Assembly: GCF_001577525.1 (NCBI RefSeq)
Contig: NZ_CP013015.1
Coordinates: 1,557,667 to 1,621,666 of the forward strand
DNA from: Candidatus Desulfofervidus auxilii
GTDB taxonomy: Bacteria; Desulfobacterota; Desulfofervidia; Desulfofervidales; Desulfofervidaceae
Direction of reading: 5' to 3'
DNA length: 64,000 nucleotides
The first letter of the stretch is position 1; the number at the start of each line of letters is the position of its first letter. The translations under genes and the position numbers were made by a program. The notes under the pieces were generated by a model. It saw only the letters and a program-made list of their open reading frames with translations. It searched no databases and was not told the origin of the DNA. Of the stretch, positions 18,205-39,623 are shown piece by piece.

Positions 18205-18911
18205 TCTTTGACATCTGGGGAGATTACGGACATTTTAAACGGTTTTATACCACTACCTCGCCCCTTACCCACTCCTTTCCTCCACCAACAGCAGTATTTG
18301 GCATGTTAGGGGCGATTTTAGGAGTGGATAAAAGAGAATATTTACGGCATATTAATTTAAATACCCTATCTTTAAGCATAGCCATCGTAAATCTAATCAA
18401 AAAGGCAAGATACGGGCTTAACCTTGTGAATACCAAAGATAATTTTTGGGTGCCAGTAAAAAAAGCCTATCATGAACCCCGTATTCAGGTAAAAACAGAA
18501 TTTTTAAAAGAATGTCGTTTCAGGATATATGTCTGCTTTCATAATCCCAAGTGGCAAGATAAATTAAAAGAAAATCTATCTGCCCATAAAACCCACTACA
18601 CACTTTCTTTAGGCTTAGCATCTTGTTTGGCTAATTTTGATTATATGGGAGAATTTGAAGCAAAGAAAGAAGATGAAAAAGAACTTCATATTCACAGCGT
18701 AGTGTCCATGTCCAAGTTCATAAATGTCTCTTTAGAACAGGGAAAGAAATATTTTAAAGAAAGAGTGCCTTGTAACATGACACCTGACAGAGAAGTTACT
18801 TCTTATGAAGATGTGATCTTTAATCCTGATGGACAAATAGAAAATCCGTTAAAACTTAAAGTAAAAGAATGCTTCTTACTGGAAAATAACGAGTGTATTG
18901 TTACCTTCTAA
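18192..18911 (+). CDS. cas5: Type I-B Cascade subunit Cas5 (Cas5h)
   Basis: 239 residues of the Cas5 RAMP family. The N-terminus MQFLVFDIWGDYGHFKRFYT, followed by SPLTHSFPPPTAVFGMLGAI, is the usual beta strand and PP-T-GMLGAI helix of Cas5h. Cas5 caps the 5' handle of the crRNA and contacts Cas8. It overlaps cas7 by 13 bases, and cas3 starts two bases after its stop. No catalytic residues are expected here, because cleavage of the transcript is done by Cas6, which lies elsewhere in this window. Confidence 0.9.
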   Translation: MQFLVFDIWGDYGHFKRFYTTTSPLTHSFPPPTAVFGMLGAILGVDKREYLRHINLNTLSLSIAIVNLIKKARYGLNLVNTKDNFWVPVKKAYHEPRIQVKTEFLKECRFRIYVCFHNPKWQDKLKENLSAHKTHYTLSLGLASCLANFDYMGEFEAKKEDEKELHIHSVVSMSKFINVSLEQGKKYFKERVPCNMTPDREVTSYEDVIFNPDGQIENPLKLKVKECFLLENNECIVTF

Positions 18912-18912
18912 T

Positions 18913-21222: not shown

Positions 21223-21390
21223 GAGGGGTAGGGATGAGTGGGGAGAAAAGAAGCAAGTCTTTTTTATATAGCCGTGCTGGGAATTAATCCCCCCCATCAC
21301 CTTCCTTTCCACCTCAATCTTCTCAAACAAGTTTTTCATTAAATTTGACAGTTGTTTTTCGCAAATTCACTGTTTATGGGCGTTTTTAAG

Positions 21391-21443
21391 CGTAAATGAA
21401 GATGGGTACTACATTTAGGATTACTTGAAGTCTTCATTTATGC
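21391..21443 (+). promoter_or_regulatory. Inverted repeat upstream of antitoxin gene (candidate operator)
   Basis: CGTAAATGAAGA at 21391-21402 is mirrored by TCTTCATTTATG at 21431-21442, with 11 of 12 pairs and a 28-base spacer. It ends 27 bases before the ATG of the antitoxin-like gene. Toxin-antitoxin operons are usually autorepressed through such sites. It is too widely spaced and lacks the T run for a terminator of cas3. Confidence 0.4.
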
Positions 21444-21469
21444 GTATTATAATGCGCCAGGAGGTAAAA

Positions 21470-21712
21470 ATGCAAAAGGTAAGGAGATTAAACATAACTA
21501 TTTCTGAGGAAGTTTATGAAGCCTTACATCGTGTAGTTGGGCCACGGAAAATAAGTAAGTTTATAGAAAGTTTAGTACGGCCTTATGTGGTAAAAGAAGA
21601 CCTTACTAAAGCTTATCAAGAAATGGCAGCAGATAGACAAAGAGAAAAGGAAGCTAAAGAATGGACAGAGGGATTGATTGGAAATTTAGATAAAATTGGG
21701 TTCTGTGACTGA
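21470..21712 (+). CDS. MazE/RHH-like antitoxin
   Basis: 80 residues from the ATG at 21470, which has GGAGGTAAAA upstream; earlier in-frame starts add 15 residues with no ribosome binding site. VRRLNITISEEVYEALHRV is a ribbon-helix-helix DNA-binding start, followed by KISKFIESLVRPYV and a charged C-terminal tail that would bind a toxin. Antitoxins of this kind pair with MazF/PemK RNases. The expected toxin directly downstream survives only as a 3' stub. It sits between cas3 and cas4, inside the cas locus. Confidence 0.75.
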   Translation: MQKVRRLNITISEEVYEALHRVVGPRKISKFIESLVRPYVVKEDLTKAYQEMAADRQREKEAKEWTEGLIGNLDKIGFCD

Positions 21713-21767
21713 AAAAGAGATGGCTGAGATAGAAAAAGCAATCAAAATCCAGCTTGGATTTATTTAG
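21696..21767 (+). pseudogene. 3' remnant of a MazF/PemK-type toxin gene
   Basis: In a frame overlapping the end of the antitoxin gene, the DNA reads LGSVTEKEMAEIEKAIKIQL then GFI and stop. This closely resembles the last helix of MazF/PemK toxins (often ...SxExMxxIxxALxIxLGL). The other 80 or so residues of the toxin are absent, so a deletion joined the antitoxin end to the last codons of the toxin. Confidence 0.6.
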
Positions 21768-21874
21768 ACATATCTGCCTTTCATTAGCAACCATCTTATA
21801 ATTTAACATTAAAACGCTTGTCACGAGAGGTAGCGAATTTTAAAACACTACTTGACAACAAAATATTTTAGTAT

Positions 21875-21898
21875 TTTTGTGCACTAAAATGCACAAAA
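21875..21898. promoter_or_regulatory. Perfect 9-bp inverted repeat upstream of cas4
   Basis: TTTTGTGCA at 21875-21883 and TGCACAAAA at 21890-21898 are perfect complements around a six-base CTAAAA centre. The site follows a TTGACA (21852-21857) and lies 36 bases before the cas4 ATG. It could be an operator for the cas4-vapBC-cas1-cas2 unit or a short hairpin in its leader. No T tract follows. Confidence 0.4.
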
Positions 21899-21933
21899 CT
21901 TCAAATTTTTGTTCAGTTTATTTAAAATAATCA

Positions 21934-22428
21934 ATGCTACGCATCACTGGCACCTTAATCTGGTATTACTATGTTTGCAAAAGAGAAGTTTGGCTCATGG
22001 CACATGAGTTACATCCTAATCAAGAAGATCCGTTTTTAGAGATTGGACGTCTTATTCAAAAAGAAAGCTATGCTAGGGAGAAAAAGGAAATAGAACTTGG
22101 ACATATTAAGATTGATTTGATAAAAAAGGCAGACGGTGAGTTTATTGTAGGTGAGATCAAAAAGTCCTCTCGTTTTGAACACCCAGCCAAGATGCAACTG
22201 GCCTATTACCTCTATTGCCTAAAACAATATGGCATTGCTGCTACAGGTGAGCTTTTAATTCCCAAGGAGAAAAAACGCATCAAGGTAGAATTGACCGAAA
22301 ACATAAAAGCTGAACTGAAACAAACCATCTCCGCTATCAAAGAAATTATAAAACAAGAAAAACCACCCTTACCACAAAGAACTAAATATTGCTCTCACTG
22401 CGCTTATAAGGAATTTTGTTGGGTATAA
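21934..22428 (+). CDS. cas4: CRISPR-associated exonuclease Cas4
   Basis: 164 residues with the RecB-nuclease motifs of Cas4: GRLIQKESYAREKKEIELGH (motif I/II region), IKIDLIKKADGEFIVGEIKKS (the D...EVK-like catalytic core, here GEIKKS) and QLAYYLYCLKQYG (QxxxY motif). Four cysteines for an iron-sulfur cluster are visible: VCKREVW near residue 15 and CSHCAYKEFC at the C-terminus. Cas4 trims prespacers and checks the PAM before Cas1-Cas2 integration. It begins a second transcription block of the locus, separated from cas3 by the decayed toxin-antitoxin remnant. Confidence 0.93.
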   Translation: MLRITGTLIWYYYVCKREVWLMAHELHPNQEDPFLEIGRLIQKESYAREKKEIELGHIKIDLIKKADGEFIVGEIKKSSRFEHPAKMQLAYYLYCLKQYGIAATGELLIPKEKKRIKVELTENIKAELKQTISAIKEIIKQEKPPLPQRTKYCSHCAYKEFCWV

Positions 22429-22489
22429 TAAATTTTTATCTTGTAATTTACCATATTGCCTTGTATAATTTGCAAGGAGGTGATTTAAA

Positions 22490-22717
22490 ATGAAAACATC
22501 AGTAACAAAAAGGGGACAAACAGTCATTCCGGCTTCTATTCGGAAAAAATATAAAATAAATGAGGGAACCATCCTTCAATGGATTGATACAGAAGAGGTA
22601 ATTAAAGTGATTCCTATACCTAAAAATACAATTAGCTCTTTGCGAGGTATAGCAAAGGGAGAAAAACTTCTAGAAAAATTGCTCAAAGAGAGAGCCTTAG
22701 ATGAGAGAAGAGAATAA
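22490..22717 (+). CDS. vapB: VapB antitoxin (AbrB-type)
   Basis: 75 residues with the AbrB/SpoVT fold opening KTSVTKRGQTVIPASIRKKY, including the GQTVIPASIR core that binds DNA. The charged tail (LLEKLLKERALDERRE) would occupy the toxin groove. A strong AAGGAGGTGATTT precedes the ATG. The stop overlaps the toxin gene by 17 bases. It lies between cas4 and cas1, so the module is expressed within the adaptation part of the cas locus. Confidence 0.88.
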   Translation: MKTSVTKRGQTVIPASIRKKYKINEGTILQWIDTEEVIKVIPIPKNTISSLRGIAKGEKLLEKLLKERALDERRE

Positions 22718-23144
22718 ATACCTTTTTGATACCTCAGCCTGGTTCACACTTTTAGAAGATGAAGAGGGAGCAAACCAGGTAGAAAGGCTGCTAAAAAATG
22801 AGAAGATTGTTGTGCCATTCATCATTCTCTTAGAAATTTATTATATTACTTTACAGGAAAAAGGCACAGAGACCGCAGACAAAAGATATGCAATGATAAA
22901 AAGTTTAGACCTAGAAATTTTATGGAAAATAGATGAGCCTACTCTTATGTTAGCAAGCTATTTTAAGGCAAAGTATAGAATTTCTTTAGCTGATGCAATA
23001 ATTGCTGCTTTTGCTAAGAAAGAAAACGCCATTTTAGTTCACAAGGACCCTGAATATGAAATTTTAAAGCATAAGGTTAAACAGCTTATATTGCCTTATA
23101 AGAAGAAATTATTAAGAAAAACCTCCTCTGCTCCAAAAGACTAA
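22701..23144 (+). CDS. vapC: VapC ribonuclease toxin (PIN domain)
   Basis: 147 residues of the PIN fold. The acidic residues of the active site are visible: FDTSAWFTLLED (first Asp), PFIILLEIYYIT (Glu), and SLADAIIAAFAKKENAILVHKDPEYE (Asp pair). VapC toxins cleave tRNA or rRNA unless bound by VapB. All motifs are intact, so this toxin should be active, in contrast to the two broken toxins nearby. It overlaps vapB by 17 bases. Placed inside the cas locus, it may make loss of cas genes costly to the cell, but this is inferred. Confidence 0.9.
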   Translation: MREENKYLFDTSAWFTLLEDEEGANQVERLLKNEKIVVPFIILLEIYYITLQEKGTETADKRYAMIKSLDLEILWKIDEPTLMLASYFKAKYRISLADAIIAAFAKKENAILVHKDPEYEILKHKVKQLILPYKKKLLRKTSSAPKD

Positions 23145-23170
23145 GTAAGTATTGTTCTCATTTACTTAGT
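23140..23170. promoter_or_regulatory. 9-bp stem-loop at the end of vapC
   Basis: ACTAAGTAA at 23140-23148 pairs perfectly with TTACTTAGT at 23162-23170 around a 13-base loop; the left arm covers the vapC stop. There is no T run, so a simple intrinsic terminator is not indicated. The downstream 72 bases lead to cas1. Confidence 0.35.
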
Positions 23171-23242
23171 ATTGTCCGACACTATTGTCTTTTACAAGCA
23201 ATTCCATTATGATGTCATCAATTTAAGATAGTATCTTCAATC

Positions 23243-24235
23243 ATGAAAAAAACCATTTATATCTTTTCAGATGGGGAGTTAAAACGCAAGCAAAATACCA
23301 TCTATTTCGAAGGAGAGAAAGGGCGTAAATATGTGCCAGTAGAGAATACTGGAGAAATTTTGATTTTTGGTGAAGTAAGTATTAATAAACGAATACTTGA
23401 ATTTCTCTCCCAGCAGGAAATCATTTTGCACTTTTTCAATCATTATGGCTATTATGTTGGTAGTTTTTATCCTAGAGAGCACTTAAATTCAGGCTATATG
23501 ATTTTAAGACAGGCAGAACATTATTTGGACAAAGAAAAACGTTTACCTTTGGCGAGGCTTTTTGTCTGGGGAGCAATGGAAAACATAAAAAAGGTGCTTT
23601 CTTATTATATTAATCGTGGTGTGGCATTAGAGGAAATTAGAGCCAATATAGAAAAACTTCAAAATAGCATTGGAGATACAAAAAGTGTAGAAGAAGCCAT
23701 GGCACTTGAAGGAAATGCCAGAGATTATTACTATCGGGCATTTGATAAAATTTTAAGTAATAGCGATTTTATCTTTGAAGAAAGAACACGCCGACCACCA
23801 CGTAATCGCTTAAACGCCTTAATCAGTTTTGGCAATAGTTTACTTTACGTGGTAGCGCTAAGTGAAATATATAAAACCCACCTTGACCCACGCATTGGCT
23901 TTTTGCATACCACAAATTTTCGCCGATTTAGCCTTAACTTAGATATAGCCGAGATCTTTAAACCCATTATTGTAGACAGACTTATTTTCACCCTGGTTAA
24001 TAAAAAAATGGTCAAAAAAACATACTTTGAAAAACACCTAAACGGTCTTGTGCTTAATGAGAAAGGACGTATACTTTTTGTGGAAGAAATAGACAAACGG
24101 CTAAAGGCCACTATTCGGCACCCAAAATTAAGAAGAAATGTCTCTTACCGCCAGCTTATTCGTCTAGAGTTATACAAACTTGAAAAACACCTGATGGACG
24201 AAGCATGTTATCAACCATTCATAGCCAGGTGGTAA
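23243..24235 (+). CDS. cas1: CRISPR integrase Cas1 (type I-B)
   Basis: 330 residues matching Cas1 along its length. The N-terminal beta domain (TIYIFSDGELKRKQNTIYFE, then IPVENTGEILIFGEV-type strand) precedes the helical domain. The metal-binding active site is Glu in AMALEGNARDYYYRAF, His in IGFLHTTNFRRFSLNLDIAE, and Asp/Glu in DIAEIFKPIIVDR. The C-terminus has RHPKLRRNVSYRQLIRLELY. Cas1 integrates new spacers at the leader end of the array together with Cas2. It is 75 bases upstream of cas2. Confidence 0.96.
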   Translation: MKKTIYIFSDGELKRKQNTIYFEGEKGRKYVPVENTGEILIFGEVSINKRILEFLSQQEIILHFFNHYGYYVGSFYPREHLNSGYMILRQAEHYLDKEKRLPLARLFVWGAMENIKKVLSYYINRGVALEEIRANIEKLQNSIGDTKSVEEAMALEGNARDYYYRAFDKILSNSDFIFEERTRRPPRNRLNALISFGNSLLYVVALSEIYKTHLDPRIGFLHTTNFRRFSLNLDIAEIFKPIIVDRLIFTLVNKKMVKKTYFEKHLNGLVLNEKGRILFVEEIDKRLKATIRHPKLRRNVSYRQLIRLELYKLEKHLMDEACYQPFIARW

Positions 24236-24574: not shown

Positions 24575-24796
24575 TTGGTGGCTAGTAGATAGCTGGATGT
24601 AAGAGTAAAGATTTTACGTATTTAATGTTTATCGTCAATGCCTCCTAGTGTAAAAAGACCCAGGAAACGACGAGAGGCATAAAAATAACCAAAAGTATTG
24701 ACACATCAGTAAAACCTTGCTAAAGGAAAATGAATAAGAGAGCTATTTTGACAATTTGGCCGGGAACGACAACTAGCAATAAAGAGGGGAAAATGC
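24575..24796 (+). promoter_or_regulatory. CRISPR leader
   Basis: The 222-base AT-rich, non-coding stretch between cas2 and the first repeat. It has TTGACA at 24698 and again at 24748, candidate -35 sites of an array promoter, though no good -10 follows at 17 bases. A separated inverted repeat ATGCCTC (24638-24644) / GAGGCAT (24674-24680) may be a protein-binding or bending site. The block from 24698 resembles the cas operon promoter at 15243. The leader lies on the side where all repeats are uniform, as expected for the active end. Confidence 0.75.
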
Positions 24797-27700
24797 GTTT
24801 TGAGCCTACCTATGAGGAATTGAAACCTTAGTGAGAATGCAGACGCCAAACAGGAAGAGCGGAGTTTTGAGCCTACCTATGAGGAATTGAAACCGTCAAA
24901 TGCAAAGCCTAACCTTCTTAAAAAGGTTTCAGTTTTGAGCCTACCTATGAGGAATTGAAACACAACATCATGGAAATACACTGAGGCACTTCTAGGCAGT
25001 TTTGAGCCTACCTATGAGGAATTGAAACCATCCTTGCTCCACCATGCTCTGTAAGCTTCTCGTAAGTTTTGAGCCTACCTATGAGGAATTGAAACTTTTG
25101 CTGCCCACTCTGCAAACTCTTCGGGGAAGTCTGTTTTGAGCCTACCTATGAGGAATTGAAACATGTATTCCATTGCTTTCTCTTGTATCTCTTCCCAGTT
25201 TTGAGCCTACCTATGAGGAATTGAAACCAAGAAATGTAGAGCGAGAAATTATCTTTTTTCTAGGTTTTGAGCCTACCTATGAGGAATTGAAACAACCAAT
25301 TGTTTTTATTACTCCTGCAAGGTTTTTAAAGTTTTGAGCCTACCTATGAGGAATTGAAACAACCCAGTATGGCCACTGCACTAAGTACCCTAGGGTGTTT
25401 TGAGCCTACCTATGAGGAATTGAAACCACTAAACCCATAATCAAATGCCGTCATAATGTTCAAGTTTTGAGCCTACCTATGAGGAATTGAAACAGTGCAC
25501 GAAGACGCAGATAGTCATCCACAGTAAGTAGTTTTGAGCCTACCTATGAGGAATTGAAACCCAATGGCCAAAGAGCCTCAAACTGAGACTTCTTCAGGTT
25601 TTGAGCCTACCTATGAGGAATTGAAACTCAAAGATAAAACTTTTGATAGGACATCCCATACCTGTTTTGAGCCTACCTATGAGGAATTGAAACATCCTCT
25701 TCCTCATCCATCACATACATGGGGGTGCTTGTTTTGAGCCTACCTATGAGGAATTGAAACTGTTGCAAGTAGGGGTAGGGGATATGGTAGAAGAGCTGTT
25801 TTGAGCCTACCTATGAGGAATTGAAACGCCTCAAAATTTAACTCTCCATCATTAACTTCTTCGTTTTGAGCCTACCTATGAGGAATTGAAACTATGAGTT
25901 ATGTGTATGAGTTGGGGTATAAAGGGGGGGTTTTGAGCCTACCTATGAGGAATTGAAACGGGGAGAGAAAACAATTATGGTGCAGTGGGGGGATAAGTTT
26001 TGAGCCTACCTATGAGGAATTGAAACCCATTTACCTCATCAAAACAGTCTAACCAAAATCCGGTTTTGAGCCTACCTATGAGGAATTGAAACACTTGTCT
26101 CGCCAGAAAGGCATGATGTCCAAGGCTCTGTTTTGAGCCTACCTATGAGGAATTGAAACAGTTATATAGCAGTTTTAATTCTGGCTTTTTTCATTTGTTT
26201 TGAGCCTACCTATGAGGAATTGAAACTCTATCAAAAACCACTTTTCACATATCTCAATCACGTTTTGAGCCTACCTATGAGGAATTGAAACTGGCTTCCT
26301 TTTTCTGATGCTCAGTTTGGTGGCGTGTGTTTTGAGCCTACCTATGAGGAATTGAAACCCTTTTTGAAAATTCTAGAGCATTTACCACCGCATTGTTTTG
26401 AGCCTACCTATGAGGAATTGAAACCTTCATGCTGGGTAAGATTTAAAATTTTAACCATTTTGTTTTGAGCCTACCTATGAGGAATTGAAACGCAGGATAG
26501 GCCCCTGCACTAGAGGGATATATGGAGGTTTTGAGCCTACCTATGAGGAATTGAAACCATATTTACCTTGCCTAACACAACTGTTTTCTGCTGAGTTTTG
26601 AGCCTACCTATGAGGAATTGAAACAACTCTACTGGACGGCCTCGCCATGAGGTAACATCCAGTTTTGAGCCTACCTATGAGGAATTGAAACTTTGTAAGT
26701 CCTCTTGCTATCATTTTCAAGACAGAGTTTTGAGCCTACCTATGAGGAATTGAAACCCGATTTCCTTATATATGGTTTTATATTTGGATACGAGTTTTGA
26801 GCCTACCTATGAGGAATTGAAACGAAAGATGATTAGTGATATGTATAGGACAGCCTCCATAGTTTTGAGCCTACCTATGAGGAATTGAAACGAGCTGGTT
26901 ATAACTAGCACTTATGACGGTAATCACGTTTTGAGCCTACCTATGAGGAATTGAAACACGGCCAAACCAATATCCAATGTCCTCTAGCACTTCGTTTTGA
27001 GCCTACCTATGAGGAATTGAAACTGACATTAAAGATAGATGTCAAGCCCTTTTCCAGTTTGTTTTGAGCCTACCTATGAGGAATTGAAACAGATTTTGGA
27101 TATGTTAACAAGGATTTGTATTTTTGGGTTTTGAGCCTACCTATGAGGAATTGAAACCTACTTTAAAAGAGAAGATAAAGTTGCAGACAGCGAGTTTTGA
27201 GCCTACCTATGAGGAATTGAAACTTCCAGAGGGCTGGGATATTTGCATACAAAGCCAAGTTGTTTTGAGCCTACCTATGAGGAATTGAAACATCCCCTCT
27301 GCCCAGCTATACACGTCTTTTACAGCTCCTGTTTTGAGCCTACCTATGAGGAATTGAAACTTGTATCTTTTAACCCACTGCTCACCCATTTTATTCCGTT
27401 TTGAGCCTACCTATGAGGAATTGAAACTCAGCTCTATAATCCTTTAGACCAAATATCTCTAAGTGTTTTGAGCCTACCTATGAGGAATTGAAACAACAAA
27501 TCCCTAGCCTCAATCAGCTCCTCATCTGCGTTTTGAGCCTACCTATAAGGAATTGAAACTATGTGGTAACACCTATATCCACCACCGCTGTCCTCGTTTT
27601 GAGCCTACCTATAAGGAATTGAAACCACAAACAGACATTCAACCCCATCTTAGGCAGGATAGTTTTGAGCCTACCTATAAGGAATTGAAACGAAAAAGGA

Positions 27701-27890
27701 AGCCACAGACCATCATACTGGGTAAAAGTTTTGAGCCTACCTATAAGGAATTGAAACGTTCATAAAATGCCTTATCTAACCTCTAATCTACACGTTTTGA
27801 GCCTACCTATAAGGAATTGAAACTGACCCTAGGACTAATACTTTTAGGAAGAAAAATAGAGTTTTGAGCCTACCTATAAGGAATTGAAAC
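24797..27890 (+). CRISPR. Type I-B CRISPR array, 47 full repeats
   Basis: The 30-base repeat begins GTTTTGAGCCTACCTA and ends GGAATTGAAAC. I count 47 full copies at 65-69 base periods, so the 46 spacers are 35-39 bases and all look different. Copies 1-41 share CCTATGAGG; copies 42-47 (from 27530) have CCTATAAGG. The ATTGAAAC end would give the 8-base 5' handle of type I-B crRNAs, so the + strand is the crRNA strand, with the leader at the left next to cas2. A degenerate 48th copy lies at 27925-27954. Confidence 0.99.
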
Positions 27891-27924
27891 CTCTCCTTAC
27901 TAATCACCAGTCACAAGTCACCAG

Positions 27925-27954
27925 GTTTTTAGCCTACCTATAGGGAAATTTAGC
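27925..27954 (+). repeat. Degenerate terminal CRISPR repeat
   Basis: GTTTTTAGCCTACCTATAGG followed by GAAATTTAGC matches the array repeat well in its first two thirds and poorly at its 3' end, as is usual for the leader-distal copy. It overlaps the stop end of the ycaO gene by five bases. The 34-base segment before it is discussed as a finding, because it may not be a true spacer. Confidence 0.8.
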
Positions 27955-29395
27955 TATTGCCTTCTTTTTGGATAAGCTCGGCAAAGTCTGCCAAAAATTT
28001 GGGTGAATTCATAAGTTGGGGGGCGAGTAATAAAGCTTGTTGAAAATATTCTATAGCCTTTGGATATTGCCCTGCTTTTTTATAACATACCGCTACCTGA
28101 CAAACAATTTGGGGAACTTGAAGGTAAGAAGGTTCTGCATCCAATGCCTTTTCTAAGTAAACGACTGCCTGACTATAATAACCAATATCCATCAGTTGTC
28201 GGGCAATAAGTAAATAAGGGTGAAGTTTGGCACTGGGACGATTAAGCCTAGCTCCAGGAACAACAGTAATGACAGCAGGAATGTCCAAGTCAGGATGGGT
28301 GGTTTCTATCACAAATCCTTCTAAGTGTTTTTGACTCAACAAATCAAGAACACGTTCTATTTCTATCTTAAAATCAGGGTGGGAAAAAGAAGGAACACTA
28401 GTAAAATCTATTTTTTCACCATCTAAAAGAAATTTAGCTGATGTTAAGTCTTTAAATCTAGGAAAACAATAAGTGGGGGCGCCTGGCCTTTTCTGGACTA
28501 GTTCTCTATAGAGCATCTGAGCCCGATGTTGGGCAAGCTCATTTAAGGCCCGAATGACAGCAAGTTCGGGATTTAAATGACTACCAGCCGCAGCATAAAT
28601 CTTAATAGTGGATATAAGGGCATGGTTGTCATGGGTAATGACCGCTAGAGTGGGAATACCTAAATCCAGACTAAAATCTTTTATAAATATTTCAATTCCT
28701 GCATTTTTTATTTTTTCTATTAGACCTTGAACAAGAGGAGACTTAATAGAATCAATATTTATAGTAGGAACAATCTTTTTCCCTTCTATTACTAAAGAAA
28801 TGCAATGTCTTTCTATGATTTCCTGTAAGGCTTGAAGGACAGCTTCTTCTAAAGTATTACCAGCCGCCCAGCCTGTAGTGCCGTAAATGCGGTAAAACCA
28901 GGGTAAAGGGAATAATACTTCTTTGTGGTGTTTAAAACTATAAGCTTTTACCCAAGCAAGAGGGATTGATTCTAAGGTTTCTAAGATTTTATTATCTCTA
29001 TAATAAAAAGGTATAGGGTGAAGTAGACTGTCAAGAGGTATGGCCTTTTCTTTTATTTCTTTATAAGGAGCAATAATAAAATGATTGGTGTTTTTTAAAT
29101 ACATAAATCCGCTATATCTTTCTATCAATTCCATTAAGGCACTTGCCTTGGCTTGTTCTGGAGTGATGCCTTTTCCATAAGTTTCCTCAAATTTTAATGC
29201 CTTAGCTACATCTTGATTTATTTTACAGGTATAAGCAGGAATACCAATTCTATCCATTTTATCCAAACAAACAATTTCAGAAAATATAGTAGCTTTGCTT
29301 TGTGTTAAGCTTGCCAAGGCCTTCTCTATAGTTTCTTCCGGCACACAGGCCTTATCCTGTCCATAGGTATAAGTTTTTAAACAAGAATTTAACAA
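27950..29395 (-). CDS. YcaO-domain protein with C-terminal TPR
   Basis: 481 residues. The YcaO ATP-binding core is shown by three ordered motifs: KASALMELIERYSG (about 85), EEAVLQALQEIIERHC (about 180) and VIRALNELAQHRAQ (about 275). It continues to PAVITVVPGARLNRPSAKLH. The last 90 residues read as tetratricopeptide repeats (YSQAVVYLEKALDAEPSYLQ, YPKAIEYFQQALLLAPQ). YcaO enzymes activate peptide amides with ATP to make azolines, thioamides or amidines; there is no PxPxP azoline ending, and no TfuA gene is adjacent. A target peptide is not visible nearby. It ends inside the degenerate CRISPR repeat and overlaps the AsmA-like gene by 7 bases. Confidence 0.85.
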   Translation of the reverse strand: MLNSCLKTYTYGQDKACVPEETIEKALASLTQSKATIFSEIVCLDKMDRIGIPAYTCKINQDVAKALKFEETYGKGITPEQAKASALMELIERYSGFMYLKNTNHFIIAPYKEIKEKAIPLDSLLHPIPFYYRDNKILETLESIPLAWVKAYSFKHHKEVLFPLPWFYRIYGTTGWAAGNTLEEAVLQALQEIIERHCISLVIEGKKIVPTINIDSIKSPLVQGLIEKIKNAGIEIFIKDFSLDLGIPTLAVITHDNHALISTIKIYAAAGSHLNPELAVIRALNELAQHRAQMLYRELVQKRPGAPTYCFPRFKDLTSAKFLLDGEKIDFTSVPSFSHPDFKIEIERVLDLLSQKHLEGFVIETTHPDLDIPAVITVVPGARLNRPSAKLHPYLLIARQLMDIGYYSQAVVYLEKALDAEPSYLQVPQIVCQVAVCYKKAGQYPKAIEYFQQALLLAPQLMNSPKFLADFAELIQKEGNS

Positions 29396-32300
29396 ACCAG
29401 CCTCCTTTCAATATTTCTTAAATTATAGGTTAAAGGTTTAAATATTTCTATAGGAGCACCAATAAATCTTTTCATAAGGCCCAAAATCCCTTTACCGATG
29501 GCAGAAGGAGGAAGGAGCACTACCTGGGGATTTTGTATTCGGCCTTTAACCTCTAAGGGCACAGAGATAAAAGTCTTGCTCTTTCCAGTTAAAATCTTAC
29601 CCAAAATAGGTATCTTGCTTAAAACAACATCAATAGTTCTCAATGGGGCAACCAAAATAGCCATCTTTAGTTTTGAACTAGAGATATCAAATGTCCCCTG
29701 GCCTACAATCTTCATCGCCGGGCTATCAATCACAGCCGATTCTATATTTAAAATCCCATTTTGTAAACTAGCCTTAATATCAAAATGTTTATAATAGAGC
29801 CCTTCTTTAGTAAGGTCTGGGAGTCTACCCTTAAAGACTTCTATCACATTCAATAGAGAGAAAATCTTGGCCAAGAGAGTGGCTTTATAAATCCTTCCCT
29901 TTTTTGAATGAAACTCAAAATAACCAGAAGAATTTTCTTCAATGGGTCTTTTCTTCCCCTTGGCCTTAAACTCTCCATTAAGAGAATAATTGGCTTCAAA
30001 TAAGTGGTCTTTTTGGAAAAGACATTGGGATAAGCTATTCAGTGCCAGGTCTTCCCCATTCAAGGAAATGTTTACTTCTGTTTCTTTTTTTGAGGTTCTG
30101 ATAAAACCATTTAAGTCTAAGTTACAGTAATTTCCTTTTAAAATCTCCATCTTTATTTTTTCACTCTTTTTTATGGTAATAAGAGCCTCTATTTGTTTTA
30201 AATTAACATTGTTATATCGTAATAAATCAATCTGGGCATCTATGTTTGCATTTATTTTAACCTTAGGCCTTTTTTCTGAGGTTCTTTGGGGAAATAACTT
30301 ACTAATTTCGTTTAAATCAATTACTGAAGCAAATATCTCCCCATTTACTCCCAGAAAATCTTCTATAAATTTTATACTTCCCTGAGCTTCCAATGTAGTT
30401 TCCTTCAAAGAAAGGGCACATTTTTTAATGTCTATTTCCTGTCCCTTGGCATTTAAACTCATTTTTTCTATTGTGAGTTTTTTAAAACCATTTAGATTAG
30501 ATAATCCTTCTACCAACAAATTCCCTTTAAGTTCAGAATTCCCAAGGTATGCCAAATCAATCTTTCCCTTAATTTCTCCTTCAAAAAAACCATTAAGGTA
30601 TTTATTGCTGATTAAAATGGCGTCTAAGGTATGAGAAGAAAGACTCCCCTTAAAATTCAAGTCAAGAACAGGGTCTTTCTGCCAATTTAAATCTAAACAT
30701 AGATAACATTTTTTGTTATTTTCTTTTAAATAAAAATCTCTAATAGAGCATTTCTGAGGTGAATAATCTAAGGTAAAACTTAGGGAAATCTTTTGGGGAT
30801 TTAAAACATTTATTTCAAGATGAGTATATTGAGGGTGATAATCTAATTTAAAGGTTTTAACTCTAGCTGGCGTTTTGATTTTAAGTGAATTAGGGATATT
30901 TGCCAAGTCATAAATCCAATCTTGGAGAGAAGCAGTTATTTTCCCTGCTCCTTCAAGCCTTATTTGTCTTTCTTTAGTAAAGGGAGTTTTGATCTCACCA
31001 GAAAGGAAAAAAGTCCCATTTCCTAAACGCCCTTGGGTATTCCTAAACTTAATCAGGTGAGGAGAAACAAATCCCTCACCCCTTTCTATTTGAGCCTTTT
31101 TAGGCAAAAAAGAAAGAAAAAGAGCAGAATTTTTAAGATTAAAATGAAAAGCATAATTAAGGGAAGAAGGCTGGCCAAATTTGTAAACAAATTGGGCTGA
31201 AGAAACTTTAACTTCTCCTTTAGAAAGCTCAAATGCTTGGTAAAGACTATTAAGAAATGTCTGTTTTTTCAGCCAGGGATTGAGTTCATGGGCTATTAGT
31301 TTTCCAGAAAACTCCTTAATATTTAAGAAAATCTTTGGATTGGAAAAATCTACCTCACCTTTGGAATTACTAATTACAGAATGGCCAAAGCGTCCTTTAA
31401 GACCTTGCCAGCATATCTTTTCTGTGTTGTAAGAAAAACCAACCCTATTAATAAAGGCAGGATAAGGAAGTCTTGCATAAAGGATATTTCCTTTTACTAA
31501 AGCACCTTTAAGACTTACATCTGCAGTCTTATATGTGCCAGTAATAACCAGCTTGCCAGAAACTATACCTTCAGTTTTGGAAATAAGCTTAAGTTCTTTT
31601 TGGACCAAATGATTTTTTACAAACTTTTTAAGAAAAAACAAACCTGTTTTTAGGGGTGCAGTAAACGCCCCCTCAATATTCAAATCTTTATGGGGTGCTT
31701 GGATACCAATGGCAATCTTGGCCTCCCTGATTTCAGCACCTTCCATAATCCCAGAGAGGTTTTCACCATAAAGCACACCTTCTTTTATAGTAATTCCGCC
31801 TTGTCCATTATGGACTTTCAATCCTACTTTAGGAATATCTATTTCTGCCATAGAGGCTTCTGCTTGCAGCTTAAATGTCTTTAAGGACTCAAATTCTTTT
31901 TTGTTAACGGCTGTCTGGGTTATGTGAAAGCTCTCCGCCTTCCCTGCCTTCACAATCTTAAATATATTTTTAATGGCCTTGCTTTGGGAAAAGACACTTA
32001 ACAATAGCTTTCGGCAACCAGTGACATCTATCTCTTGGGCATAAAAATCATAAGCTATATGGTATTTTTTAACATCCGTATTTAACCACCCTTGACCTTT
32101 AATCCTGGGTGTTTCCAGTTCTAACCTTGATAGTTTAAGCTCCCAATTATTTCCCTCTTTAAGTAACGTCCCTTGTGCAATTGCGTTTTTCAAAAAAATA
32201 TTTGGAGATTGGGATTTAAAGCAAGGAGAAGCAATATTAAACGCTAAATTGAACTTAGTAGGTGACTTAAAGTCAAAACTCAGTTCTAAATCTATTTGAG

Positions 32301-32994
32301 ACTTATTTATTTTTTTATTTACGGAAACTAAAGGAAGGTGCTCAAGCCTTAAATTTTTAACCTCTGCACGTCCTTTTAAACTAGATAAACTAGAGCGTGC
32401 CTTTAGAAATATTCTCTCACTAAAAGGGGTGCTAAAAGAGGTCTCTAAAACAATTTGGCTATCCTTTACATCTGCCTTGAGCTTGATAGAATGAGCTTTG
32501 AAAATAGAAGTCTTTTCTTTTAGGACCTCAACAGAACTATCTTTTAATTGAATATGTGCTTTGAAAGAAAGGGCTTTAAGTCTTTTTCTCTGTTTCTTAA
32601 ACACCTCAATTGGAGCAATAGAATTAGCTGATTTAGATGAAAGGGTAAACCTTAAGTCCGCCTTCTCTAAAACAACAGACTCTATCTCCAACTTTTTATG
32701 CAAGATAGGCCAAACTTTGGGATAACCCGAGACTACGGCAAAGAAGGCCTTAAAATTATCCGAAGCTACGGTGGTGTTTTTTAAAACTATTTTAGGACGA
32801 GGGAGAAACCTAACTGAAATATAACCAATCTGAGTTGAAACTTGATAGCGGCTTCTCAATTCCTGGTTAATTTTTGACTTAATAAAATCTAGGTTTAAAA
32901 AATAGGGGAGAATTATTAAAGTCAAAAATAAGACAATAATAAAACATCCTATTCCCAGAAGAATCCAAACAAGAGACTTTTTAGCTTTACCCAT
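29389..32994 (-). CDS. AsmA-like / DUF3971-type intermembrane lipid-transport-family protein
   Basis: A 1,201-residue protein with one N-terminal membrane segment (WILLGIGCFIIVLFLTLIIL, about 9-28) followed by a very long beta-rich region. It ends with IVGQGTFDISSSKLKMAILV, APLRTIDVVLSKIPILGKIL and VPLEVKGRIQNPQV, the AsmA C-terminal signature. Large AsmA/TamB-like proteins bridge the inner and outer membranes and help move lipids, so this supports a Gram-negative envelope. It is flanked by ycaO (7-base overlap) and a radical SAM gene (8-base overlap), so all three should be cotranscribed. What links the three is not obvious. Confidence 0.8.
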   Translation of the reverse strand: MGKAKKSLVWILLGIGCFIIVLFLTLIILPYFLNLDFIKSKINQELRSRYQVSTQIGYISVRFLPRPKIVLKNTTVASDNFKAFFAVVSGYPKVWPILHKKLEIESVVLEKADLRFTLSSKSANSIAPIEVFKKQRKRLKALSFKAHIQLKDSSVEVLKEKTSIFKAHSIKLKADVKDSQIVLETSFSTPFSERIFLKARSSLSSLKGRAEVKNLRLEHLPLVSVNKKINKSQIDLELSFDFKSPTKFNLAFNIASPCFKSQSPNIFLKNAIAQGTLLKEGNNWELKLSRLELETPRIKGQGWLNTDVKKYHIAYDFYAQEIDVTGCRKLLLSVFSQSKAIKNIFKIVKAGKAESFHITQTAVNKKEFESLKTFKLQAEASMAEIDIPKVGLKVHNGQGGITIKEGVLYGENLSGIMEGAEIREAKIAIGIQAPHKDLNIEGAFTAPLKTGLFFLKKFVKNHLVQKELKLISKTEGIVSGKLVITGTYKTADVSLKGALVKGNILYARLPYPAFINRVGFSYNTEKICWQGLKGRFGHSVISNSKGEVDFSNPKIFLNIKEFSGKLIAHELNPWLKKQTFLNSLYQAFELSKGEVKVSSAQFVYKFGQPSSLNYAFHFNLKNSALFLSFLPKKAQIERGEGFVSPHLIKFRNTQGRLGNGTFFLSGEIKTPFTKERQIRLEGAGKITASLQDWIYDLANIPNSLKIKTPARVKTFKLDYHPQYTHLEINVLNPQKISLSFTLDYSPQKCSIRDFYLKENNKKCYLCLDLNWQKDPVLDLNFKGSLSSHTLDAILISNKYLNGFFEGEIKGKIDLAYLGNSELKGNLLVEGLSNLNGFKKLTIEKMSLNAKGQEIDIKKCALSLKETTLEAQGSIKFIEDFLGVNGEIFASVIDLNEISKLFPQRTSEKRPKVKINANIDAQIDLLRYNNVNLKQIEALITIKKSEKIKMEILKGNYCNLDLNGFIRTSKKETEVNISLNGEDLALNSLSQCLFQKDHLFEANYSLNGEFKAKGKKRPIEENSSGYFEFHSKKGRIYKATLLAKIFSLLNVIEVFKGRLPDLTKEGLYYKHFDIKASLQNGILNIESAVIDSPAMKIVGQGTFDISSSKLKMAILVAPLRTIDVVLSKIPILGKILTGKSKTFISVPLEVKGRIQNPQVVLLPPSAIGKGILGLMKRFIGAPIEIFKPLTYNLRNIERRLVC

Positions 32995-34264
32995 TTTTTA
33001 AATACTGATTAAAATATCCCCACTTTAACTCAGGGAATTCCTTTTTCAATTCCTCCATCATATTTTTTATCCCTATTCCGGCAGTATATGGAATTTGCAT
33101 TTGTTTTATATACCAAAAAGGGTCAATATTTAAATTTTTCAACTGGATTAAATCCAGGTGAGTCTCAGCAACCAACTGTTTAAGGGCATTGATTTCTTCC
33201 ATGGTATCAGAAAGACCAGGAAAAACAAGATAGTTAATCATGGTAAATATGCCTTTTTCTTTGGCTAATTTAATAGTATCCTTTACTGCCTTAAAATTAT
33301 AATTTATAGGTCTATGATAACGGTGATAATACTCTGGTTGGGCACTGGCCAAGCTGATGCGAATACTATCCAAACCGGCATCTATGATTTTTGATACCAT
33401 TTTGGGAATACTCCCATTGGTATTGAGATTTATAGTTCCTTTATCAGTTTTTTGCCTTATAATCCTGATACTCTCAGCAATAGTATCTCCTGCCAACAAT
33501 GGCTCTCCTTCGCAACCTTGTCCAAAGCTAATAATAGGTTGTTGCGCATAAAGCACATGGGGTAAGGCAATTTCTACAATTTCTTCTACTGCAGGCACAA
33601 ACTGAATCCGATGATGAGAAGGCAAACAGCTATTTTCTTCCTGCCAGGAAAGGCATCCCAGACAACGGGCATTACATGCAGGAGAAACAGGTACAGGAAG
33701 TTCCCAGCGTTCATAGAAGGCATTTTTGGCAGCAAAACAGTGAAACTCAGTAGCACAGCGCTTTAGGTGTTTAAGTAAACGATTGTTAGGAAAATGAGAG
33801 AGTTTTTTCTTTATTTTGGGCAAAAGGGAACGGTCATCATATTGAGATGGATACCAGTGGGGATTATCTTCAATGAGAAAGGCAGGCACCCAGTATTGGT
33901 GATCATACCATCCTATGGCAGTATATGCCCAAAGGGGTAAAATACAGTCTTTATGAATATACTCTGCTGCTGGTAACAAGCACCGCACATATCCCGGAGG
34001 CATAAAGGCAGCTACACCATAACAAGGTTTATCCGAAAAGGGTGAGACTTCCAAGAGATAAATGTGTCCTTTCTTTTCATCATAACCAATGGGTGGACAT
34101 TTGGGTAAGAAAAAGAGTTTGCTCCCTTCAGGGAGAGGTATAAAGTCTTGGGGTTTGGGAACAACAATTTGTTCCCCAGATTTTCCTATGGCTTTGAGAT
34201 AAGGGTGATTATAAATCCTGCCTTGGGCATCTGCATAGACTACATAGGGCAATTCATTCAACAT
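32987..34264 (-). CDS. Radical SAM protein, unknown substrate
   Basis: 425 residues. The cluster motif C-x3-C-x2-C is in PVSPACNARCLGC (about residues 196-203), followed by IISFGQGCEGEPLL (the GGEP-like SAM-binding segment), TINLNTNGSIPKMV and GLDSIRISLASAQPEYYHRY. The N-terminal 190 residues are an extra domain with no motif I recognise (VVYADAQGRIYNHPYLKAIG). It resembles an uncharacterised family I associate with deltaproteobacteria. Only one iron-sulfur motif is apparent; a SPASM extension is not seen. It is the first gene of the operon with the AsmA-like and YcaO proteins. Confidence 0.82.
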   Translation of the reverse strand: MLNELPYVVYADAQGRIYNHPYLKAIGKSGEQIVVPKPQDFIPLPEGSKLFFLPKCPPIGYDEKKGHIYLLEVSPFSDKPCYGVAAFMPPGYVRCLLPAAEYIHKDCILPLWAYTAIGWYDHQYWVPAFLIEDNPHWYPSQYDDRSLLPKIKKKLSHFPNNRLLKHLKRCATEFHCFAAKNAFYERWELPVPVSPACNARCLGCLSWQEENSCLPSHHRIQFVPAVEEIVEIALPHVLYAQQPIISFGQGCEGEPLLAGDTIAESIRIIRQKTDKGTINLNTNGSIPKMVSKIIDAGLDSIRISLASAQPEYYHRYHRPINYNFKAVKDTIKLAKEKGIFTMINYLVFPGLSDTMEEINALKQLVAETHLDLIQLKNLNIDPFWYIKQMQIPYTAGIGIKNMMEELKKEFPELKWGYFNQYLKNG

Positions 34265-34357
34265 CAGCAGTTCATCATAAATTAGTAAGTAAAAAGGTCA
34301 AGGGTTAGTGGGTTTGAATACCTTGTTTAAAACAGTCAGAAGTGTTAAAAAAGCTCC

Positions 34358-35134
34358 ATGTCTGTATTAGATAATATCATTGCTCATAAAAAGAAAGAAA
34401 TAGAAACACTAAAAAAACATAAGCCATTAGATGAAACAGTGGCTGAATTTAATCTTTATCCTAAACGCTCTTTTTCTCAGGCTATTACTCACTCTGAGGA
34501 GATAAGTATTATTGCTGAAATAAAGAAGGCCTCCCCTTCCTTAGGAATAATCCGTGCTGATTTTGAGCCTCTAAAAATTGCTAAGCTGTATGAGGAAAAT
34601 GGGGCATCTGCTATCTCTGTGATTACTGATAAAAAATTCTTTCAAGGAGATATAAATTTTTTACCAGAGATAAAGACAGCCGTTAAGCTGCCCATTTTGC
34701 GTAAGGATTTTATTATTGACCCATATCAGGTATATGAAGCCAAACTTTATGGGGCAGATGCCTTACTGCTTATAAGCACTGTGCTTTCTGTTCAACAACT
34801 GAAGAAATTACTTAATCTCACCCATAAATTGGGAATGGAGGCCCTGGTAGAAGTCCATGATGAAAAAGATTTGGAAAAGGCATTAAAGGTAGAAGCAAAA
34901 ACTATTGGCATCAATAATCGCAATTTAAAGACCCTTAAGGTAGATTTAAATACCTGCCTTTGTTTAAAAGAAAGAGTGCCAGAAGAGAAAATTTTAGTAG
35001 CCGAAAGTGGGGTTAAGACCAGAGAAGACATCTTGCTTTTAGAAAAAGCAGGGTTTCAGGCAGTATTGATTGGTAGTGCTTTAATGCAAGCAGAAGATAT
35101 AGGGAAAAAACTTAAAGAATTTTTGGGCAGATGA
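34358..35134 (+). CDS. trpC: Indole-3-glycerol phosphate synthase
   Basis: 258 residues of the TrpC TIM barrel. Active-site segments are in order: IAEIKKASPSLGIIRADFEP (catalytic Lys), AISVITDKKFFQGDINFLPE, LPILRKDFIIDPYQVYEAKL (the RKDFI Lys), ALVEVHDEKDLEKAL, TIGINNRNLKTLKVDL and VAESGVKTREDI. It converts carboxyphenylamino-deoxyribulose phosphate to indole-3-glycerol phosphate. It starts a trpC-F-B-A group; trpE and trpD/G are not in this window. It overlaps trpF by 4 bases (ATGA). Confidence 0.96.
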   Translation: MSVLDNIIAHKKKEIETLKKHKPLDETVAEFNLYPKRSFSQAITHSEEISIIAEIKKASPSLGIIRADFEPLKIAKLYEENGASAISVITDKKFFQGDINFLPEIKTAVKLPILRKDFIIDPYQVYEAKLYGADALLLISTVLSVQQLKKLLNLTHKLGMEALVEVHDEKDLEKALKVEAKTIGINNRNLKTLKVDLNTCLCLKERVPEEKILVAESGVKTREDILLLEKAGFQAVLIGSALMQAEDIGKKLKEFLGR

Positions 35135-35754
35135 AACCACGCCTAAAAATATGTGGTATAACTAGAACAGAAGACGCCTTATTGGCTGTCTCTTTAGGGG
35201 TTCATGCCTTGGGATTTATTTTTTATAAAAAAAGCCCTAGGTATATTTCGCCTGAAAGGGCAAGAGAAATCATCATTGAAATACCTCCATTTGTGCAAAC
35301 GGTGGGGGTTTTTGTCAATGAATCTAGGGAAAAAATAAGGGAAATTGCCAGTTTTTGTGGACTTAATCTAATTCAACTGCATGGAGATGAGTCACCATTA
35401 TTTTGCGAAAAGTTGGGGTTGGCTTGTATAAAGGCCTTTCGCATAAAAGATGAGCATAGTATTGAAAATATGGTTGCCTATAAAGGAAAGGTGCGGGGAT
35501 TTCTGGTTGATACTTATAAAAAAGACCAACCTGGAGGCACAGGTGAAAGCTTTAACTGGGAACTAGCAATAAAGGCAAAGGTTTATAATGTTCCTATTAT
35601 CTTAGCTGGTGGACTAGCTCCAGATAATATTAAAAGGGCGGTAGATACAGTCCAGCCCTATGCCTTGGATGTAAATAGTGGTATAGAAAAGACACCTGGG
35701 ATAAAAGACAAAAAATTAATGGAAAAGCTATTTGCAGTATGGAGCAAAATTTAG
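35131..35754 (+). CDS. trpF: Phosphoribosylanthranilate isomerase
   Basis: 207 residues with TrpF motifs: LKICGITRTEDALLAVSLGV (catalytic Cys), GFIFYKKSPRYISPERA, QLHGDESPLFCEKL, FLVDTYKKDQPGGTGESFNW (catalytic Asp), ILAGGLAPDNIKRAV and ALDVNSGIEKTPGIKD. It carries out the Amadori rearrangement between the TrpD and TrpC steps. The ATG overlaps the trpC stop, and trpB follows after 21 bases. Confidence 0.96.
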   Translation: MKPRLKICGITRTEDALLAVSLGVHALGFIFYKKSPRYISPERAREIIIEIPPFVQTVGVFVNESREKIREIASFCGLNLIQLHGDESPLFCEKLGLACIKAFRIKDEHSIENMVAYKGKVRGFLVDTYKKDQPGGTGESFNWELAIKAKVYNVPIILAGGLAPDNIKRAVDTVQPYALDVNSGIEKTPGIKDKKLMEKLFAVWSKI

Positions 35755-38613: not shown

Positions 38614-38669
38614 TTAGCAAAATCAGCAACTTATTGCCATTTCATTTTAAATCCATATAATTGCCTACT

Positions 38670-39623
38670 ATGGATTTAAATAATCCTTTTTTACCAGACC
38701 TCTCTATCCATCATTATAAGGTCAAAATTAAGGCAAAGACGCCCTTTTTAATCCCCTCTTTCCCTGGCTCTATGTTGCGAGGAACATTCGGTGTAGCCCT
38801 AAAAAGGGTGGTATGTATAAATAGAAAAAGAACATGCAGCCAATGCTTGCTCTCGTCTTCTTGTATCTATCACTTCCTATTTGAGACAGAAACCCAAAAT
38901 CCCATTAAAGGTATTACTAATCCTCCCCATCCCTTAATCCTTTATCCTCTTGATTTAGGCGGAAAAAACATGAAAAGAAACTCTATATATCAATTTGGTT
39001 TTACTATTTTGGGAAAGGCAATTGATTATCTTCCCTATGTTATCTATGCCATAATAAAGATGGGTCATCTGGGCATGGGAAAAGGCAAGGGCAAATTTGA
39101 CTTAAAAGAAGTCAGAAAATATACCTCTGAAAAACACACCAAACAGGTCTTTAACCAATATGAAAACAGGCTCATTCCCCTGGAAACCTCACTAACATTA
39201 AAAAATATCCTTAAAAACAAATGCAAAGAGAAAAAACTAATCTTTGAAACCATCACTCCACTGCGGCTTAAAATCAGAGGGAAACTGAGGGATAATATAA
39301 CTCTAAAAGACATCGTCTTTGCCATCAGTCATCGGCTCAAAATTCTGAGCTTTCTTTATGGAGAAGGAGAGATAGACCTCCTTAAAAACCTTGATTTAGA
39401 TAAAATACTAAAAGGCATCAAAACAGCAAGCCAATTTGAATGGACAGACTTCAAGCGTTTTTCTAAAAGGCAAGATGCTCATTTGCACATCGGTGGCGTC
39501 ATGGGCAAAATGACCATGACAGGCAACCTGTCTAAAATCTATCCTTTACTCAAACTAGGCCAATATATCCACATTGGCAAAAACACTGCATTTGGCTTGG
39601 GTAGGTATAAGGTAGTAGTCTGA
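38670..39623 (+). CDS. cas6: CRISPR precursor-RNA endonuclease Cas6 (orphan position)
   Basis: 317 residues from the ATG at 38670 (TTG at 38661 is an alternative). The fold is the CRISPR_Cas6 RAMP family: PSFPGSMLRGTFGVALKRVV near the N-terminus, then a four-cysteine cluster C...C..C.....C (CINRKRTCSQCLLSSSC) seen in this branch, and the glycine-rich C-terminal loop HIGKNTAFGLGRYKVV. Cas6 cuts the array transcript within each repeat. It is absent from the cas operon at 15465-24574 and lies 10.7 kb beyond the array end, flanked by unrelated genes, so this copy is the obvious candidate for maturation of that array. Confidence 0.82.
   Translation: MDLNNPFLPDLSIHHYKVKIKAKTPFLIPSFPGSMLRGTFGVALKRVVCINRKRTCSQCLLSSSCIYHFLFETETQNPIKGITNPPHPLILYPLDLGGKNMKRNSIYQFGFTILGKAIDYLPYVIYAIIKMGHLGMGKGKGKFDLKEVRKYTSEKHTKQVFNQYENRLIPLETSLTLKNILKNKCKEKKLIFETITPLRLKIRGKLRDNITLKDIVFAISHRLKILSFLYGEGEIDLLKNLDLDKILKGIKTASQFEWTDFKRFSKRQDAHLHIGGVMGKMTMTGNLSKIYPLLKLGQYIHIGKNTAFGLGRYKVVV

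Follow-up and report, generated by a model that had tools for sequence, protein, structure and literature searches.

Three genes that overlap one another on the minus strand of the Candidatus Desulfofervidus auxilii chromosome raise the question of whether members of two modification enzyme families and a giant envelope-type protein work together as one machine. They lie in the window analysed here, a stretch of 64,000 nucleotides (assembly GCF_001577525.1, contig NZ_CP013015.1, positions 1,557,667 to 1,621,666; coordinates below count from its first base), and are transcribed in the order radical S-adenosylmethionine (rSAM) enzyme, AsmA/YhdP-like protein and YcaO protein, the last with a C-terminal tetratricopeptide repeat (TPR) and hence called YcaO-TPR. 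An earlier note, made from the sequence alone, had read the combination as pointing to modification of an envelope or translocated target. The answer we favour, with moderate confidence, is that the trio is not one dedicated machine: YcaO-TPR would be a thioamidase supplied with sulfur by the sulfur carrier DsrC, the rSAM protein a separate enzyme and the AsmA-like protein a passenger. As a lead, the links of YcaO to DsrC and LarE are more useful than the trio itself.

The tie between YcaO and DsrC is apparent across 395 genomes of the phylum. DsrC is present in 205 of them and in 147 of the 149 with YcaO (E <= 1e-40), the two others being 81% and 79% complete, and at the family level all 40 families with YcaO also have DsrC. 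The genes are often close as well: 95 genomes have both among the matches listed (about 150 best-scoring places in each listing), and in 24 of these, from 9 families, they lie within 3 kb, always on the same strand, where 0.2 would be expected if genes were placed at random in genomes of 2.8-2.9 Mb. Three more families with DsrC near YcaO (f19, f30 and f67) come from the YcaO loci, a set of 86 that remained after 4 of 90 were dropped for want of a called anchor open reading frame (ORF); two versions of this set each have one locus that the other lacks (L211 in place of L131), and L275-L279 were included because an rSAM gene is close. The commonest neighbour cluster at these loci is DsrC/TusE, a protein of about 106 aa found at 13 of 86 loci, 11 times on the same strand; all 13 proteins retain both C-terminal cysteines, and the three that were scanned exceed the cut-offs of PF04358 and TIGR03342. 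The control set, 100 rSAM loci combined from two genome sets (26 + 74, with at least two contigs seemingly in both, G038/L163 and G030/L177), has DsrC at a single locus, in G157, which also carries YcaO; there rSAM, YcaO and DsrC directly follow one another on the same strand, separated by 105 and 85 nt. In 3 of 10 members of the YcaO clade of the window, no more than 510 nt separate YcaO from a DsrC gene of the same orientation. Mapping DsrC as a label onto the YcaO tree takes three changes, at least two of them forced (by a quick method), so the adjacency probably arose more than once. The window genome has one DsrC, again with both C-terminal cysteines. E. coli K-12 has a DsrC homologue too, the control match for PF04358, which we take to be TusE.

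LarE, a sulfur transferase, provides a second case. At 7 of the 86 loci (f35, f38 and f50) a member of the LarE cluster is found upstream of YcaO on the same strand, six times directly, with gaps of -73 to 244 nt, and both of the two that were scanned lie above the TIGR00268 cut-off; a LarE-type gene 571 nt from rSAM on the opposite strand at L225 weighs against its being specific to YcaO. The common theme of YcaO neighbours is sulfur transfer. In PubMed Central (PMC), we found no report linking YcaO to DsrC or LarE, and no paper bringing together DsrC, a sulfur carrier and a thioamide.

The window protein scores 237 bits against the YcaO model PF02624 (cut-off 25.7), and its ATP/Mg motif, WAAGNTLEEAVLQALQEIIER, retains the pattern GN..E...Q...E..ER. 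The nearest solved structure is MJ1094 (PDB 6pe3; E 5.6e-38, aligned over 11-380), with E. coli YcaO at E 2.4e-8; the PDB labels 6pe3 as uncharacterized, and we take MJ1094 to be one of the archaeal YcaO proteins that thioamidate a glycine of McrA. TIGR03266, the McrA-glycine thioamidase model, is indeed the best NCBIfam match, yet at 176.3 bits against a cut-off of 365, and YcaO-TPR differs from the MJ1094-type enzyme in being bacterial, in its C-terminal TPR and in having no TfuA in its genome: PF07812, which gave its control match in Methanosarcina acetivorans, has no match in the window genome, a single contig of 2,540,211 bases, and so the YcaO/TfuA pair is missing.

It is the alignment to MJ1094, the retained ATP pattern, the lack of TfuA and the single DsrC with both C-terminal cysteines that lead us to propose thioamidation with DsrC as the donor. 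Most likely, YcaO-TPR would be a TfuA-less enzyme that uses ATP to thioamidate the backbone of a folded cellular protein, as archaeal YcaO enzymes do with methyl-coenzyme M reductase and E. coli YcaO does with uL16. ATP would activate a backbone amide oxygen of that protein, which the TPR domain would hold in place, and sulfur would probably arrive as a persulfide or trisulfide on DsrC or, in other lineages, perhaps from LarE. The ATP-activation half of this predicted chemistry is modelled on known YcaO enzymes and the DsrC half on gene linkage only; the folded target protein is likewise a prediction. E. coli YcaO, reported to thioamidate uL16 (PMC13063428, 2026), resembles the window protein in joining a YcaO domain to a C-terminal TPR and in having neither TfuA nor a nearby precursor peptide, and the discussion there treats the route of sulfur to this TfuA-less enzyme as an open question. 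DVU2210 of Desulfovibrio vulgaris is likewise a YcaO protein with TPR in a sulfate reducer (PMC7774982); its sequence was compared with the window protein over the printed motif, its role is left unassigned in that paper, and the main text there is silent on DsrC and thioamides. Deleting it together with sat led to molybdate resistance, according to the same paper.

The rSAM gene is associated with YcaO as well, and more loosely. Among the 395 genomes, rSAM (E <= 1e-60) occurs in 191, YcaO in 149 and both in 107, where 72 would be expected; at the family level the numbers are 54, 40 and 32, against 20.8. The two genes lie within 10 kb in 7 of the 73 genomes with both among the matches listed, with 0.55 expected under the same random placement; these are G157, G146, G000 (the window genome), G002, G394, G300 and G260, from families f1, f65, f67 and f77. 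The close pairs recovered as ORFs (L000, L028, L211, L275, L276, L277 and L279) are all seven on the same strand, as is the pair in G260 by its listed strands. The association persists among genomes with DsrC, of which 106 have both, 41 YcaO only, 14 rSAM only and 44 neither (p 6e-10, uncorrected for phylogeny), and those without DsrC (1, 1, 70 and 118 in the same order) are uninformative on the association; in these Fisher tests phylogeny was handled by family-level repeats only, with a family total of 104-106 read from the highest family label. The link between rSAM and YcaO is thus genuine, though loose, and it is a property of the YcaO family at large and not of this operon. The view that the modification enzymes belong together is upheld to that extent, beyond the family of the window; the trio is not a conserved unit. 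As a separate and widespread enzyme, the rSAM protein may add another modification to the same or a related protein, a predicted role. It is tempting to speculate further that sulfate respirers have a dedicated protein-thioamidation pathway, in which DsrC, and not TfuA with a thiocarboxylate carrier, would feed YcaO-TPR and an rSAM enzyme with six conserved cysteines and an unseen N-terminal domain would finish the same protein, but we regard this as a tentative and rather unlikely extension.

How far the trio itself speaks to function can be judged from its arrangement here and in relatives (Table 1). Overlaps of 7-8 bases had been described, and they measure 8 nt between rSAM and AsmA (32987-32994) and 7 nt between AsmA and YcaO (29389-29395); the family assignments of the earlier note are borne out by Pfam (PF02624, PF13116 and PF04055). 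The note names the genes by coordinate, which is the reverse of their transcription. The co-directional overlapping run is probably co-transcribed. Overlap is weak evidence for a common function in this dense window, because 19 of its 39 same-strand neighbour pairs overlap, and another 13 have gaps of 0-20 nt (50 of the 53 window ORFs were counted, three nested or antisense ones being excluded). Nor is there a precursor peptide beside the genes, as had also been remarked: of 89 small ORFs of 20-110 aa in 26900-35200, 30 match DNA of 12 loci of relatives, and since every one of them falls, with a tolerance of 30 nt, inside one of the three genes (YcaO, AsmA or rSAM), they merely shadow those genes and no conserved precursor is left. 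The nearby precursor that marks a cluster for ribosomally synthesized and post-translationally modified peptides or thiazole/oxazole-modified microcins is therefore lacking in 26900-35200, the only part of the genome searched for one.

Table 1. Genes of the trio and features of their products, in window coordinates.
Feature	Position	Strand	Remarks
rSAM gene	32987..34264	-	425 aa, ATG start; first transcribed of the trio
AsmA/YhdP-like gene	29389..32994	-	1201 aa, ATG start; middle gene
YcaO-TPR gene	27950..29395	-	481 aa, TTG start; last gene
YcaO catalytic (ATP/Mg) domain	28247..29176	-	residues 74-383; PF02624, E 3.7e-70
C-terminal TPR of YcaO-TPR protein	28016..28099	-	residues 433-460
rSAM CxxxCxxC motif, SAM-binding [4Fe-4S] cluster	33653..33676	-	C197, C201, C204; invariant in 59/59 aligned
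rSAM extra invariant cysteines C170, C176	33737..33757	-	putative; candidate second cluster site
rSAM invariant C251, beside GEP motif	33512-33514	-	putative; candidate second cluster site
rSAM beta-rich N-terminal region	33767..34264	-	residues 1-166; confident model

The trio adjoins in two of the five genomes of the family (f1), overlapping in G000 and contiguous in G002, and only in these does YcaO directly follow AsmA. The rSAM and AsmA genes adjoin in four (G000, G002, G003 and G004, with overlaps of a few bases) and are apart in G001; YcaO and rSAM are on separate contigs in G001, G003 and G004. Two outcomes had been named in advance as telling against a functional unit, restriction to this genome and adjacency by chance; the outcome lies in between, as G002, which belongs to another genus, also has the trio, but three of five family genomes have it split. 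The trio is a local arrangement that predates a single genus without having become fixed across the family. Counts for the single genes were 25 for rSAM (E <= 1e-20), 23 for YcaO (E <= 1e-10) and 31 for AsmA-like matches (E <= 1e-6) in a search of 59 genomes.

Several observations weigh against the reading that we favour. The DsrC gene of the window genome is 1.49 Mb away from YcaO as counted along the contig (about 1.05 Mb should the contig be circular), and in 71 of the 95 genomes with both among the matches listed the two are not within 3 kb. The published ATP motif, as quoted in PMC7774982, opens with Ser, where the window protein has Ala (WAAGN versus SAGN of DVU2210). Deletion of DVU2210 is described in the same paper as leaving growth by sulfate respiration similar to that of the wild type, and such a modification is therefore not essential for respiration in D. 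vulgaris. The confinement of YcaO to genomes with DsrC may be a mere mark of sulfur-metabolising anaerobes, and the co-occurrence tests are corrected for phylogeny at the family level only. In the YcaO clade of the window, rSAM occurs in 5 of 10 genomes, all of them f1, and the other five are without it. Finally, two f30 genomes have an AsmA gene in the same orientation as YcaO at a distance of 4.6 kb, a second case of the two together; with 24% identity to the window protein for AsmA and 57% for YcaO, this proximity would appear to be chance. Transfer of AsmA into these genomes along with YcaO was considered and rejected on the same identities.

A rival explanation is that these are unrelated housekeeping genes in a compact genome and that the statistics for rSAM-YcaO and YcaO-DsrC reflect a shared lifestyle. 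The frequency of overlaps in the window, the splitting of the trio within the family and the limited correction for phylogeny all fit this account. Lifestyle does not explain proximity, however, and here the same-strand closeness of YcaO and DsrC in 9 families, the closeness of rSAM and YcaO in four, and the forced changes of the DsrC label on the YcaO tree argue against it, so that we consider coincidence unlikely, if still worth some weight.

Quite improbable, in our judgement, is that YcaO-TPR is a partner of RimO in modifying ribosomal protein S12, or modifies uL16 in the way of its E. coli namesake (PMC13063428). The window genome does encode RimO, and in G005 a short YcaO is followed by RimO (TIGR01125, 435 bits, cut-off 357), but this is the only one of the 86 YcaO loci with a RimO/MiaB-type gene directly beside YcaO; five f72/f91 loci have a member of the same BLAST cluster 5-8 genes away, and the single member scanned proved to be MiaB rather than RimO. 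E. coli YcaO is 24-31% identical to its 20 best matches in our set (28% to the best-scoring member), and its isoelectric point (pI) of 4.4 contrasts with 5.9-9.2 in the clade of the window. The window protein itself, at pI 6.7, is not strongly acidic and scores 76 bits with the uL16-type model NF040716, whose cut-off is 700. By score, identity and pI, uL16 is thus unsupported as its target.

It is also conceivable that DsrC is the substrate of YcaO and not the donor, with thioamidation tuning the C-terminal arm of DsrC. Its rank as the commonest YcaO neighbour and the conservation of both cysteines in all 13 adjacent proteins are as expected under this idea, but 58 of the 205 genomes with DsrC have no YcaO at E <= 1e-40, and there are DsrC crystal structures for which no thioamide is reported. 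The normal sulfate respiration of the DVU2210 deletion (PMC7774982) also counts against it, and we hold it to be very improbable.

This leaves the AsmA-like protein and the envelope. YhdP (PF13116) matches its C-terminal residues 840-1158 with E 1.9e-30 and 106 bits (cut-off 46), a membrane anchor is discernible by eye at the N-terminus, and the protein is like the bridge-like AsmA/YhdP envelope proteins in this C-terminal homology and in its length of about 1200 aa, though far below the NCBIfam equivalog cut-offs. We take the AsmA/YhdP family to serve envelope lipid transport, and on its domain content the window protein is predicted to be a probable factor of this kind. A profile hidden Markov model built from four family members, which divergent AsmA proteins may escape, finds this type of AsmA near rSAM at 4 of the 100 rSAM loci, all f1, and not within 8 kb at the other 96, nor within 8 kb at 82 of the 86 YcaO loci. 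At a further locus, L212, an AsmA gene lies about 2.8 kb from rSAM; L212 and L278 are outside the 100 because the rSAM ORF was not recovered. The AsmA protein also diverges fastest of the trio (47.8, 37.5 and 32.3% identity within the family, against 76, 75 and 72% for rSAM), and it probably joined rSAM within the family, as a passenger. That YcaO and rSAM together modify AsmA or material handled by AsmA in one envelope-directed machine, for which the gene overlaps in the family, the f30 genomes and L212 might be cited, is highly unlikely in view of this rarity and divergence and of YcaO and rSAM proteins with no export signal obvious to the eye, which could therefore reach no more of AsmA than its short cytosolic tail. 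In PMC, the paper that names both YcaO and AsmA is a Haemophilus annotation paper. The genes that recur beside YcaO serve sulfur transfer (DsrC, LarE) and not the envelope, and the envelope or translocated target proposed in the earlier note finds no support.

The rSAM protein is a clear member of its superfamily by Radical_SAM (PF04055; E 1.9e-19, 70.9 bits against 29.5) and by its CxxxCxxC motif. Alignments of 22 and of 59 sequences show no variation in the cysteines of that motif or in C170, C176 and C251, and the latter three might form a second metal site. Its predicted structure (mean pLDDT 95.6) has a barrel that reaches almost to the C-terminus and is closest to NifB (6y1x; Z 17.1, root-mean-square deviation 3.5, 214 aligned, residues 133-417), with PFL-activating enzyme and BlsE close behind and BlsE the first match in Foldseek; the window protein shares the partial barrel with all three and differs in C170, C176, C251 and an N-terminal region of its own. 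Modelled alone (pLDDT 92.2), this region had no Foldseek match at E <= 0.001, and VIA-align gave none above Z 2.3; a solved relative was thus not found by either program, and a new fold is not thereby proven. No NCBIfam model listed at E <= 0.01 reaches its cut-off, and the same is true of the SPASM families, which mark the SPASM/Twitch peptide maturases by a C-terminal domain with auxiliary clusters; in the window protein, some of the extra cysteines precede the barrel and others are within it. Most rSAM loci seen have neither the window type of AsmA nor YcaO beside rSAM: in 80 loci from named genomes (rSAM ORF recovered in 74), the fetched stretches contained one YcaO (L211) and one AsmA (L212). 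Fixed neighbours for the family in other bacteria were considered and rejected, as neighbours vary among loci. Two rSAM genes contain one in-frame stop, G013:C6:30771-32024 (TGA) and G280:C7:197083-198354 (TAA); the former may stand for selenocysteine or be an error.

The short YcaO clade to which the window protein belongs is rare, with 10 of 395 genomes at E <= 1e-90. The short YcaO of f30 (L231 and L232, in G103 and G344) nests inside the family of the window on the tree, with support of 99 together with G001, which suggests transfer of the YcaO gene between distant families; in both neighbourhoods YcaO is accompanied by DsrC and by a helix-hairpin-helix (ComEA-like) protein. A second YcaO is encoded in the window genome at G000:C1:1293754-1294650 (L052:8502-10226), with a YcaO-type domain from about residue 247 after a long N-terminal extension, and the second YcaO of G001 (L131) has a comparably low score against the short-YcaO profile. 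Three genomes of the family have a second, longer YcaO with three recurring neighbours; in G004 (L122), whose set was the one scanned, they are the sulfide-dependent thiazole synthase Thi4 (TIGR00292, above cut-off), a protein of homocysteine type (TIGR03287, below cut-off) and one resembling ferredoxin. At four f11 loci (L118, L119, L280 and L284), a gene for a CxxCxxCC protein (marginal PF03692) comes after YcaO, together with one for a small conserved protein of about 115 aa that has no Pfam match; a substrate or accessory in f11 may be represented here.

Downstream of the trio, a large CRISPR array occupies 24774-27949 of the window, with the repeat GTTTTGAGCCTACCTATGAGGAATTGAAAC, of which 46 copies were counted for family D1, and its last, degenerate repeat starts within about 10 nt of the YcaO stop codon; in G002 an Era-like GTPase gene follows YcaO at this place. 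Genes for TM1802, Cas3 and Cas1 lie on one side of the array (15465-24235), and a Cas6 gene (38661-39623) is found some 11 kb off, past the YcaO operon and trp genes, as if the cas locus had been split.

The family tie between YcaO and DsrC suggests a route by which sulfate respirers may insert sulfur into a protein backbone, and the linkage makes DsrC a concrete candidate for the sulfur donor of TfuA-less YcaO enzymes. The rSAM family, present in about half of the genomes of the phylum (191 of 395), lies above no named NCBIfam cut-off. If a dedicated thioamidation pathway of the kind outlined here does exist, it would couple protein modification to respiratory sulfur flux.

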